Source: Pseudomonadota bacterium
GTDB lineage: Bacteria; Pseudomonadota; Alphaproteobacteria; Acetobacterales; Acetobacteraceae
Length of the DNA stretch: 40,703 nucleotides
Assembly (NCBI GenBank): GCA_021805545.1
Contig: JAJZFB010000095.1
Span: 1 to 40,703 of the forward strand
Reading direction: 5' to 3'
Shown: positions 14,557 through 17,112 of the stretch, piece after piece
Numbering within the stretch: the stretch's first letter is position 1
How the letters are laid out: the number at the start of each line of letters is the position of its first letter
The notes under the pieces: model-generated
Databases searched by the model: none
The model's input: only the letters and a program-made list of their open reading frames with translations
What the model was told of the DNA's origin: nothing
Translations under genes and position numbers: made by a program

Positions 14557-14564
14557 TTAAAAAA
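14557..14564. repeat. Left target-site duplication (TTAAAAAA)
   Basis: These eight bases flank the left inverted repeat and are repeated exactly at 16951-16958 next to the right inverted repeat. Eight base pairs is the size typical of IS1595-family insertions. Confidence 0.93.
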
Positions 14565-14623
14565 GGTGATTATATACATGACAAAACTAACTACAATTTG
14601 TTGAGACACCGTGCCGAATTTCT

Positions 14624-14669
14624 TTGACGCGGTCACGCACCTCTATACTTAATGATTGTTAAATATAAT
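14624..14669 (+). promoter_or_regulatory. Possible promoter of the passenger operon
   Basis: TTGACG at 14624-14629 is followed by TATACT at 14644-14649 (14-nt spacing) or TACTTA at 14646-14651 (16-nt spacing), and a separate TATAAT lies at 14664-14669, only 10 nt before the start codon. One of these probably drives the operon, but the sequence does not decide which. If the last is used, the mRNA would be almost leaderless. Confidence 0.35.
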
Positions 14670-14679
14670 CGAGTGAAAA

Positions 14680-15579
14680 ATGACAATCGCCGCTTGTTAT
14701 CTGTCGCCAGAAGGAATTGTCTTGGGTGCAGATAGCACGTCAACATACCAAAATTTTGGCCGGTCAAAGCACTACAATCACGGCCAAAAACTCTTCCAAA
14801 TAGGTATAGAAAGTACCATTGGGATAGTGACATGGGGTGTTGGGGGCCTAAGGTTTGGCAGCTACCGGACATTGATCGCTCGACTGGCTGACAAATGCCC
14901 TCCGCCTCAAGCTCCCAGCGTCCAGCACGTGGCGGAGAAGTGGATCGATCTATTTTGGGCTGAGTATCAAAATTGCTTTTCTGCCGAAATTGCAACCCTT
15001 ACTACACTGAACCTTAAGCCTCCTATGGCTATGACTCCAACCGGATTGGACCCAAACTGCCGAAACCCGGCTGAAGAGATGCACTTCCGGCAGTTAAGCA
15101 ATGATCTGGTCGTTGGTTTTTGTATGGGAGGCTACGTGTTAGGCGACAGGCAGCCTCATGCATTCGAAATAATCTTCGATCCTCTCGGGGCTAAGCCCAC
15201 GCCAACGCCGCTTGCTCCGGCCCAAACTTTTTGGGGCGTGCCGTCCCTAATCGGAAGACTGATAAACGGTTGCGCACCAGAGTTAAGAAATTCTATATTA
15301 AGTTGTGGAAAATGGAACGGTACAGAAACGGATCTTGATATGTTGATAGCCCAACACAAGCTACATCACCCAGCGACAGTGCCGATCAGAGACGCGATTG
15401 ACTTCACCCACGCTTGCCTTTTGACCACAGTTAAGGCAATAAAATTTTCCAGTCTGCCGCAGGTGTGCGGCGGACCGTTGGAGGTTGCAGTAATCACTAC
15501 CGATAGACCATTTCGTTGGGTTAAGCACAAGCCCTGGGATGCCGCAATTATGGAGGAAGCTCGCGATGGCCATATCTAA
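14680..15579 (+). CDS. Transposon passenger: proteasome/HslV-like Ntn-hydrolase candidate
   Basis: The 299-aa protein has no name I recognise, but its start reads like a proteasome beta or HslV subunit. Removal of Met1 would expose Thr as the N-terminal nucleophile. IVLGADSTST puts an Asp at mature position 17, where catalytic Asp17 of proteasomes sits. QKLFQI offers Lys36 as the Lys33 equivalent. Later blocks VVGFCMGG (near residue 148) and EVAVITTDRPF (near 270) resemble strands of the same fold. Nothing suggests a propeptide, signal peptide or membrane segment. It is the first gene of the passenger operon and overlaps the next by 14 nt. Fold is an inference from motifs; substrate and assembly are unknown. 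Confidence 0.65.
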   Translation: MTIAACYLSPEGIVLGADSTSTYQNFGRSKHYNHGQKLFQIGIESTIGIVTWGVGGLRFGSYRTLIARLADKCPPPQAPSVQHVAEKWIDLFWAEYQNCFSAEIATLTTLNLKPPMAMTPTGLDPNCRNPAEEMHFRQLSNDLVVGFCMGGYVLGDRQPHAFEIIFDPLGAKPTPTPLAPAQTFWGVPSLIGRLINGCAPELRNSILSCGKWNGTETDLDMLIAQHKLHHPATVPIRDAIDFTHACLLTTVKAIKFSSLPQVCGGPLEVAVITTDRPFRWVKHKPWDAAIMEEARDGHI

Positions 15580-15775
15580 AAAAACTGCGACTGCCCCCGA
15601 CACATCGGGCGATGCTGCACAGGCCGAGGTCACAGTAAGGGATGTGGAGCAGTTACAGCACCTGCTTCTAATCCTCGGGGATCCGCGAGTTCGTGTGGAA
15701 GTTTCACATGGCGATTCTCAAAAACCGTCCTTTGAGATGCCGGCCAGCAGCCGTTTTCAATTTACAAATTATTGA
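15566..15775 (+). CDS. Transposon passenger: small protein of unknown function
   Basis: The ATG at 15566 has a strong ribosome-binding site, GGAGGAAG at 15552-15559, inside the end of the upstream gene, which it overlaps by 14 nt. The 69-aa product has a Lys/Thr/Ala-rich start, a central predicted helix (VRDVEQLQHLLLILGD) and a strand-like segment (RVRVEVSHG). No family is recognised. The strong signal and tight coupling argue that it is translated together with the Ntn-hydrolase-like protein. Confidence 0.6.
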   Translation: MAISKKTATAPDTSGDAAQAEVTVRDVEQLQHLLLILGDPRVRVEVSHGDSQKPSFEMPASSRFQFTNY

Positions 15776-15776
15776 A

Positions 15777-15956
15777 ATGGATGAATATTTCAGTGAAATT
15801 GAGGCAGAGCAACGCCGCACTGAGACGTTGCGCCAGCTTCTAGCGATGCCTCCACAGCAGCATGCTAGCCATCCTCCACAGACTCCCCGAAGTCGAAAGA
15901 AAGCTGGTCCAGGTGGTGGCAATAACCAGACCGAGACGGACCAGATGCGTCCTTAG
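15777..15956 (+). CDS. Transposon passenger: small basic protein of unknown function
   Basis: This 59-aa frame begins one base after the stop codon of the previous gene and ends in a stop that overlaps the convergent transposase stop codon by 3 bp. The product has a charged helical first half (EIEAEQRRTETLRQLL) and a Pro/Gly/Lys-rich, probably disordered second half. The close junctions suggest a real third gene of the operon, but no ribosome-binding site stands out and it could be a chance frame. Confidence 0.45.
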   Translation: MDEYFSEIEAEQRRTETLRQLLAMPPQQHASHPPQTPRSRKKAGPGGGNNQTETDQMRP

Positions 15957-16888
15957 AAAGTGACTTTGGCGCCGTGCTGCTCACTAGCTTGTTGATAGGT
16001 CAACCGTTTGCCGCCAACACCACGTAGCACTAGAACGGCGCGGTCTGCGTCTGAATAGCCCAGCTTGGTCCGCGTATTATAGCGGAAATCAAATTCCGCG
16101 AGGTAGCGGGCAAGGTGCTGTTCGCCGCAGTGCTGGTAGATACCGCGCATCCCGCGCTTGAAGATGCTGAACACACCCTCCACGGTGTTGGTATGCACGT
16201 TGCCCCGGACATATTCACCGGCGCTATGGGTGGTGAACTCATGGCTCGCAAAGTGCCGATGAGCAAAGCGATACTGTCCTGCCTCATCCGTCATCAGGGA
16301 AGCCTCAGGCACGATATGGGCGCGCAGGACGGGCATCACCACAGAAGCGCCGTGGCTGGGAACATGAAAAGACCGAACCTCGCCTCCGCGCTCCACCAGC
16401 GACAACACCACACGCTTATGGCCGACGCCGCGTTTAACCTTGGCGCCTTCCTTCTTGCTGATGAAAGTCTCGTCTGCCTCTACCGGCACACCATTACCGC
16501 CCATCGGGGCCAAACCGCCGGAAACCATGGCCTCGCGGATACGGTGCGACATGAACCATGCGGTTTTGTACGTCACGCCCAGCATCCGGTGGAGCTGGTG
16601 AGATGACATGCCTTTTTTGGAAGCCGAAAGCAGATGCACAGCCAGCAACCACTTGTTTAGGGCGATCTTGGAGCGCTCAAACACGGTGCCGACCGTAACC
16701 GTGAACTGGCCTTTGCAATCGCCACAGTAATAGAGCCCCGGACGATGAGATTTACCCTGCACCGCGCCAATCTTCCCCATGCAGCCACAATGCGCGCAGA
16801 CCGGGCCATTCGGCCAGCGGACGGCCTCAAGAGCCTCACGGGCAGCATCAGCATCGGTGAACATCGGGGCGGTAAGATCGGCAGACAT
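15953..16888 (-). CDS. IS1595 family transposase (ISXO2-like)
   Basis: The 311-aa transposase is complete. It has the N-terminal zinc ribbon of the family (Cys31, Cys34, Cys55, Cys58) and an RNase H-like catalytic domain with Asp139 in VEADETF, Asp201 in LMTDEAG and Glu237 in HTNTVEGVFSIFKRG. The segment EFDFRYNTR near the C-terminus is also typical. The start codon is preceded by GGAG. Its stop overlaps the end of the last passenger gene. With perfect target duplications outside, the element should be, or recently have been, able to move. Confidence 0.95.
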   Translation of the reverse strand: MSADLTAPMFTDADAAREALEAVRWPNGPVCAHCGCMGKIGAVQGKSHRPGLYYCGDCKGQFTVTVGTVFERSKIALNKWLLAVHLLSASKKGMSSHQLHRMLGVTYKTAWFMSHRIREAMVSGGLAPMGGNGVPVEADETFISKKEGAKVKRGVGHKRVVLSLVERGGEVRSFHVPSHGASVVMPVLRAHIVPEASLMTDEAGQYRFAHRHFASHEFTTHSAGEYVRGNVHTNTVEGVFSIFKRGMRGIYQHCGEQHLARYLAEFDFRYNTRTKLGYSDADRAVLVLRGVGGKRLTYQQASEQHGAKVTF

Positions 16889-16909
16889 GGGAAAACTCCT
16901 ATGAGGCCC

Positions 16910-16937
16910 ATTCTACATCTTGTGGTACTTACGTCAA
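16910..16937 (-). promoter_or_regulatory. Predicted transposase promoter inside the right inverted repeat
   Basis: On the minus strand TTGACG (16932-16937) and TAGAAT (16910-16915) are spaced by 16 nt, close to consensus. The -35 box lies within the terminal inverted repeat, so transposase binding to the end could repress its own transcription. This is a sequence match and an inference. Confidence 0.5.
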
Positions 16938-16952
16938 GTATATAATCGCCTT

Positions 16953-16980
16953 AAAAAAGGCGGCTTTGGCCGCCTTTTTT
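16953..16980 (+). terminator. Intrinsic terminator, originally of the SYLF gene
   Basis: An 11-bp perfect stem (AAAAAAGGCGG at 16953-16963 with CCGCCTTTTTT at 16970-16980) encloses a 6-nt loop and carries a T-run. It can act on both strands. Removing the transposon places it directly after the SYLF gene, so it is that gene's displaced terminator. It now insulates the right flank of the element. Confidence 0.85.
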
Positions 16981-17015
16981 GTCTGTCTGCTCGTGAATCT
17001 CTATCTGTGGGGCTC

Positions 17016-17078
17016 TATTGTCCCGGTTCTGAAATCCGCGATATTTCACATCACGAATTTCAGAACCATCACACTATA
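17016..17078. repeat. Palindromic repeat C, divergent copy
   Basis: The arms GGTTCTGAAATCCG and ATTTCAGAACC and the outer TGTCCC match repeat C at 3478-3529, but the centre is longer and differs. It lies between the displaced terminator and the end of the zinc-ribbon gene. Confidence 0.7.
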
Positions 17079-17112
17079 GTCAGCCGCAGTCAGCCGCTAA
17101 TGGTGTCCGGCC

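Follow-up and report, generated by a model that had tools for sequence, protein, structure and literature searches.

The window analysed here is a stretch of 40,703 bp from an Acetobacteraceae bacterium (assembly GCA_021805545.1, contig JAJZFB010000095.1). At positions 14565-16950 it carries an intact IS1595-type element of 2,386 bp, in which a transposase gene is accompanied by three plus-strand cargo genes encoding a proteasome-like hydrolase, a 69-aa partner protein and a 59-aa protein of a family that we call TPP. Comparison with related elements suggests that this element is probably a compact shuttle, in which a constant backbone carries exchangeable effector genes.

The element and its insertion site

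The tips of the element are GG at 14565 and CC at 16950, and both are directly flanked by an 8-bp target duplication, TTAAAAAA, whose left copy (14557-14564) and right copy (16951-16958) are identical at 8/8 positions. A duplication of 8 bp is usual for the IS1595 family, whose members mostly have one transposase gene each, according to the accessible parts of PMC8101967. The distal terminal inverted repeat (14565-14590, plus strand) matches the other tip at 20/26 positions, and the transposase-side repeat (16925-16950, minus strand) was located by an inverted-repeat search and by tip comparison; arms of 27 nt are 81% complementary. An earlier sequence-only reading had described these repeats as imperfect, which they are, and had counted 25 of 32 matching positions, a figure that is reached only with a gap; the ungapped count by eye is 22/32.

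The transposase gene (15953-16888, minus strand) encodes a DDE enzyme of 311 aa, which matches Pfam DDE_Tnp_IS1595 (2.4e-34) and NCBIfam transpos_IS1595 (8.7e-57) and has the N-terminal zinc ribbon that goes with the family. Upstream of it lies a promoter-like site (16910-16937, minus strand; TTGACG, 16 nt, TAGAAT) with its -35 inside the terminal repeat and 10/12 consensus matches; the site is weak, as four such sites were found against 2.1 expected by chance. A plain insertion sequence (IS) holds transposition genes only. Here three cargo genes lie inside the repeats, and the element is therefore classed as a passenger-carrying (transporter) IS or small transposon.

Both flanks are present in a sister species of the genus (genome G1002, stretch L289), where they lie 121 bp apart and are 92.7% and 89.9% identical to those of the window. 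Where the window carries the element, the sister genome has an empty site with an uninterrupted terminator hairpin; in the window, the right copy of the duplication lies within the A-tract of this terminator-like hairpin (16953-16980). The neighbouring ABC protein of the sister genome is 99% identical to that of the window. The spacing of the flanks and the unbroken hairpin show that the element is a precise insertion. With this empty site, the 8/8 duplication and the complete transposase, the intact IS1595-type transposon of the sequence-only reading is upheld. One copy of the element is present in the assembled source genome (96 contigs, 97.75% complete), where one hydrolase match was found; the assembly has two further IS1595-like genes, at 41% and 33% identity. 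Immediately to the right of the element lies a further inverted repeat (17013-17079; 30 nt, 77% complementary, loop 7), and the sister stretch is gapped across much of the same region.

The cargo operon of the window element

The three plus-strand genes form a real cargo operon, as had been proposed. The hydrolase gene (14680-15579, 299 aa) is overlapped at its end by the gene of the 69-aa partner protein (15566-15775), for which the start was corrected and which has GGAGGA just 5' of its ATG. The TPP gene (15777-15956, 59 aa, start also corrected) is the last of the operon; its product contains LRQLLAMPPQQH followed by a basic Pro-rich tail, and its end overlaps the end of the transposase gene by 4 bp. 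Searches of the three cargo proteins against Pfam, NCBIfam and PADLOC, the two small genes as longer versions of their open reading frames (ORFs), gave no match.

The 299-aa protein matches phrog_5990, a family of unknown function, with an E-value of 1.8e-9. In proteasome-like N-terminal-nucleophile (Ntn) hydrolases the catalytic triad is Thr, Asp and Lys, and Thr becomes the first residue once the Met is removed; HslV and proteasome beta also have a Thr in this position. The window protein has a Thr directly after its start Met, together with the Asp and the Lys. T2, D18, S19, T22 and a Lys are invariant in 12 aligned hydrolases, and T2, D18 and K37 (window numbering) in 33, the window included in both alignments. 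The predicted structure (predicted local distance difference test, pLDDT, 74.9; predicted template modelling score, pTM, 0.75) matches the 20S proteasome beta subunit 1ryp_K with E 8.9e-8, probability 1.00 and template modelling scores of 0.47 by query and 0.67 by target, and Anbu 5nyw with E 3.0e-7. The invariant residues and the modelled proteasome-beta/Anbu fold agree with the earlier assignment to proteasome-like Ntn hydrolases, and the enzyme class is confirmed as a predicted fold.

Related elements carry different cargo

Relatives of the element were taken as the best 80 of 571 candidate transposase loci (53-67% identity). Repeats, together with an 8-bp duplication, were sought in the 250 bp upstream of the transposase and in an interval that begins 60 bp short of its end and reaches 4 kb beyond that end. 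By duplication 52 of the 80 were delimited, 51 of them at 8/8 and one at 7/8; two accepted duplications are T-runs (L057, L089) and less informative. Every one of the 52 carries cargo behind the transposase (1,083-2,899 bp, median 1,433.5), at a total element length of 2,063-3,866 bp, and the target duplications are 84% A+T, versus 41% in the flanks. Among the 28 loci without a duplication of 7 or 8, nine with a repeat pair of at least 21/26 were kept for cargo counts and 19 were dropped, which gives a cargo set of 62 elements (61 relatives and the window).

Twelve further loci served as a control. Two distant ones (L192 and L193, 34-36% identity, one annotated ISRm32) are plain elements of 1,187 and 1,191 bp, and two plasmid relatives (L186 and L187, 58% and 56%) each carry a PIN gene as cargo, in one case annotated VapC. 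L188 came out with 834 bp and a duplication that is ambiguous in an A-run, and six of the twelve have no duplication. Another distant IS1595 element, of 3.9 kb with an 8/8 duplication (L194:2780-6689), carries genes for a universal stress protein and a SulP transporter.

In the cargo, 107 ORFs were compared with Pfam, where one ORF can match several families. Panacea and PIN were found four times each and DUF3892 three times, and PIN_10, PIN_8, Clp protease, AlbA_2, DUF3800, DUF433, GIY-YIG and others once. PADLOC matched 12 families, the best being PDC-M24B (2.5e-12) and PDC-S50 (1.9e-8), with the others from 5e-6 up. The commonest large cargo is a HEPN-like protein of about 200 aa, and a model built from 28 members covers 31/62 elements. 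At 10-24% identity, the 28 aligned proteins keep only the R and H of RNxxxH (R115, H120), which we take to be the HEPN motif. HEPN ribonucleases have an Rx4-6H motif in a helical bundle; the motif is present across the 28-sequence alignment, and the AlphaFold model of one member is helical (pLDDT 84.9). Another recurring cargo protein, of 76-141 aa, looks Cas2-like by inspection (YDLxxPGxxY; L036, L040, L051, L068, L078, L102) and occurs in elements with differing main cargo.

Exchange of cargo between close relatives was seen at the level of both protein and DNA. Twelve pairs of transposases are at least 80% identical (80-99%), and the large cargo, with homology tested by blastp at E<1e-4, is common to one pair and different in 11; in L086 and L094 the transposases are 99.1% identical and the cargo is unrelated. 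In eight pairwise DNA comparisons, a block of 79-95% identity begins at the repeat and ends 24-61 bp past the transposase match, except in L077/L082, where it ends just short of the end of the match. In 7/8 pairs identity resumes within the TPP gene, for 68-146 aligned bases, and in 7/8 at or near the distal end, where three pairs share no more than the 24-27-bp repeat. The resumed identity of L077/L082 extends across the TPP gene and all that follows, and the interval between transposase and TPP differs. The breakpoints can be read as two cargo slots, one on each side of TPP. An inward -35 in both repeats was considered as a general cargo promoter and rejected: TTGAC[AG] is present in 39/52 transposase-side repeats but in only 15/52 distal ones.

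The TPP protein and the shared start codon

An all-vs-all comparison of 760 cargo ORFs gave TPP as the largest family, present in 35 elements. These proteins, of about 50 aa, contain the stretch DEVLxRMLxTPPKPH, and their basic Pro/Lys tail is Pro-rich in most of the 23 listed. A model from 24 TPP proteins, the window excluded, matches 50/62 elements at E<0.01, among them the third gene of the window, which scores E 4.4e-7 as a segment of the longer ORF 15693-15956. Purifying selection acts on the N-terminal part of TPP: over 19 pairs, which are non-independent and come from the divergent class only, substitutions by codon position number 147/84/242, and codons with a single change are synonymous in 107 cases and non-synonymous in 77.

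Searched alone in 289 class genomes, TPP matched 19 (own included, its protein being in that model). Twenty stretches, which cover 21/22 non-own places with G095 left out, were examined, and an IS1595-type transposase is present in 14 and a HEPN-like gene in 11; L232 and L236, among the 14, are nearly the same sequence, and in L224 the transposase is weaker and 2.8 kb away. One stretch, L220, holds two IS1595-type transposases back to back, with a TPP gene at each. A candidate motif upstream of HEPN-like genes, GGVFSxRRRTSS, was discarded, being by inspection the TPP gene read antisense.

Where TPP and HEPN-like genes are divergent, both start on one ATG, within the palindrome CATG, in 24 of 27 pairs (L026, L034, L097 and 21 more; 22 found by script, L026 and L040 by hand and then confirmed), L044 being doubtful among the 24, its TPP start being non-homologous. 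A second set from the TPP-first search (L220, L222, L226 and others) has the CATG in 7/10 distinct pairs; L222 is the same as L071, one of the 80 loci but outside the 27 pairs and the 61 elements. GG-rich positions that precede the HEPN-like start by 6-10 bases fall inside TPP codons, and CTCC at a similar distance on the other side falls inside HEPN-like codons; by inspection, both are placed as the ribosome sites of the two genes would be. The 5' ends of the two messages would be mutually antisense. The window differs in layout, with a single operon in which TPP is last.

Distribution of the hydrolase family

An exact peptide scan with the window protein alone found no close relatives in genome contigs, viral contigs, plasmids or phages, and a class-level search with it in 385 genomes found one relative (L002) besides itself. 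Further relatives were reached through L002 and through a search of the window's own order. By way of L002 the family was found in 9/372 class genomes (own included), seven plasmid records and two phage records. It is also present in 7/398 genomes of the phylum and 14/250 of the order, both counts including the window's own genome, and in 170 stretches of viral contigs, 80 of which were examined. Homologues were located on chromosomes and plasmids, in phages and in an integrase island; many belong to a long form (about 400-460 aa), while the window protein is a short form. On three Rhizobium plasmids (L017:2930-8106, L018, L021) a long-form gene lies near a multiubiquitin/ThiF (E1-like) gene cluster.

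A small gene behind the hydrolase recurs in viral loci. Among 62 distinct viral rows, 55 have a 46-71-aa ORF whose start lies in the interval from 32 bp ahead of the hydrolase stop to 27 bp past it (counting L125, though its short ORF is a piece of the hydrolase itself); in the remaining rows the short ORF is further off in two and absent in five. In a control with a slightly different count, such an ORF follows 56/63 hydrolase rows versus 10/93 other ORFs of at least 200 aa at the same loci. The hydrolase family (phrog_5990; L106-L185) is thus common in viral contigs, and the short ORF that usually follows it is variable.

The sequence-only reading had looked to recurrent linkage of the hydrolase with IS1595 transposases, and this did not hold across the homologue and transposase loci examined. 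No IS1595 transposase or TPP protein was found in 19 other hydrolase stretches (15 places, some extending only 1.5 kb), nor in nine stretches of 8-11 kb with short-form hydrolases of the window's own family. In two of the 80 viral loci (L143, L131) an IS1595-like ORF lies no more than about 4 kb from the hydrolase, and by inspection that of L143 stands at the locus edge and points away. The hydrolase is in none of the closest 80 of the 571 IS1595 loci.

At one locus, L268, a hydrolase 58.6% identical to that of the window is directly followed by a protein of 72 aa that is homologous to the 69-aa partner (phmmer E 0.0029), and the pair adjoins ORFs that by inspection resemble a P4-type tyrosine integrase and a serine recombinase; the terminal-repeat motif was not found at L268. 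The other eight short-form stretches of the window's own family have no homologue of the 69-aa protein. From the neighbours of the L268 pair and the missing repeat motif it appears that the hydrolase and its small partner can travel as a pair, for which the transposon would be one vehicle.

Interpretation

The reading that we favour, with a probability of about 0.6, is a compact shuttle with a constant backbone and exchangeable effector genes, of which this copy acquired a portable proteasome-like pair. The backbone would consist of the terminal repeats, the transposase and usually TPP, and the other genes would be swapped by recombination at the shared blocks. For the functions of the cargo and of TPP, we infer the following. 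The cargo enzymes (HEPN-like, PIN, Panacea pairs, Clp-like, proteasome-like) may be effectors of the toxin-antitoxin or anti-phage type, which would favour retention of the element. TPP may act as a generic regulator or adaptor for whichever effector is aboard. In this copy, the hydrolase would cleave proteins once the small partner or a trigger permits.

Several observations weigh against this reading. Most cargo ORFs fall in no family, most PADLOC matches are weaker than 1e-5, and toxin-like character is demonstrated for no cargo protein. A Foldseek search with the HEPN-like model had a best E of 0.32 and no HEPN among the matches listed, and a profile search with the HEPN-like protein found no HEPN, its best match being an ArsR regulator (0.01); since no solved HEPN relative emerged by fold or by profile, we keep to the label HEPN-like, which rests on the motif and the helical model. 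TPP has no match in 12/62 elements, six of which have another small family in its place, and 6/20 TPP stretches show no IS1595 transposase, some of them near contig ends. The case for exchange comes from eight pairs only, and blastp at E<1e-4 overlooks distant relations among HEPN-like proteins. The 28/80 loci that could not be delimited by duplication could include cargo-less copies, and the hydrolase was seen inside an IS1595-type element once among the loci examined, in the window.

A more specific version of exchange, which we hold as tentative, makes TPP the universal partner or switch for unrelated effectors. In the divergent class effector and switch would share one ATG (CATG) with an antisense 5' overlap, the expression of one would exclude that of the other, and new effectors would be tried by recombination at the TPP island. 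At the opposite end, the element could be a neutral transporter IS that tolerates short DNA, with a cargo of random host or phage genes that bring no benefit and the hydrolase pair as one such sample. The single sighting of the hydrolase, the many cargo ORFs outside any family and the IS1595 passengers already known (accessible parts of PMC11891212) all agree with this. We consider it unlikely, with no cargo-less relative among 52 delimited elements, with a small protein bearing a signature of purifying selection that accompanies unrelated cargo, with RNxxxH, PIN and Panacea proteins that recur, and with the start codon shared in 24/27 divergent pairs, one of them doubtful. The alternative of "chance capture" is likewise too weak as a description, because every delimited relative has cargo and the family of the third small gene is found in most.

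TPP could also be an accessory of transposition, such as a host-factor or DNA-binding adaptor of the transposase, with the other genes as separate defence cargo. As the most widely shared cargo protein, tracking the transposase in 14/20 stretches and mostly endowed with a basic Pro-rich tail (23 listed), it would suit such a role; however, its gene lies in the cargo operon or on the start codon of a cargo gene, and not on that of the transposase, and six of the 12 elements without a TPP match have a small protein of a second family. This role for TPP is in our view improbable. The sequence-only reading had further suggested that the hydrolase controls the level of transposase; by processing or removing that enzyme, the hydrolase would regulate transposition. 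Its gene does lie inside the element and convergent with that of the transposase, but homologues occur without an IS1595 transposase in phages, plasmids and an integrase island, and the nearest 80 of the 571 IS1595 loci lack it. Since the linkage does not recur, a hydrolase dedicated to transposase control is unlikely, and we give this idea very little weight.

If the compact-shuttle reading is true, toxin-like and defence-like genes, most of which belong to no Pfam family, would have an overlooked reservoir and a means of exchange in small IS-like elements. The TPP gene would provide a search handle that is independent of the transposase, and the constant backbone would allow exact delimitation of cargo. 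For the proteasome-like hydrolases, a family widespread in phage contigs, a small neighbouring gene that recurs is now known, and it makes their function testable.

Comparison with known systems

The closest likeness is to passenger-carrying "transporter IS" such as ISNha5, which share the transposase family, the 8-bp duplications and non-transposition genes between the repeats; the passengers named for ISNha5 in the accessible parts of the sources are transcription regulators (PMC11891212, PMC3129680). The elements described here differ from ISNha5 in that every delimited relative has cargo, the cargo differs between near-identical transposases, and the small TPP protein is shared. Tn7-like transposons are larger, with multi-gene machinery, whereas the present elements are of 2-4 kb with one transposase. 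In the accessible text of PMC8649781, 96% of Tn7-like transposons have cargo, enriched in toxin-antitoxin, defence and resistance genes. The toxin-antitoxin pairs of the Tn3 family are alike in being transposon-borne and independently acquired, with diverse toxins that include PIN and one HEPN/MNT pair; the transposase class is another, and the parts of the source available to us describe no small partner across toxin types and no shared start codon (PMC7157771).

The hydrolase matches phrog_5990 and, likened by description only, resembles PMI-4 in its proteasome-beta fold and Thr1 (Fuchs 2021, PMC8665760, accessible parts). Its long-form relatives occur in phages, as does PMI-4, and by inspection of the alignment they appear to have two insertions, as described for PMI-4, whereas the window hydrolase is a short form. 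The accessible parts of the same paper report no genomic context pointing to a function for PMI-4 (PMC8665760); here, a short ORF stands behind the hydrolase in most phage copies. A literature search of titles and abstract beginnings, weak because it covered few subscription papers, found no cargo exchange or shared small protein in IS1595 elements and no paper on such shared starts. Against this background, an IS1595 element with a passenger is ordinary, and what is new is the constant backbone with TPP, the exchange of effector-like cargo and the shared ATG.

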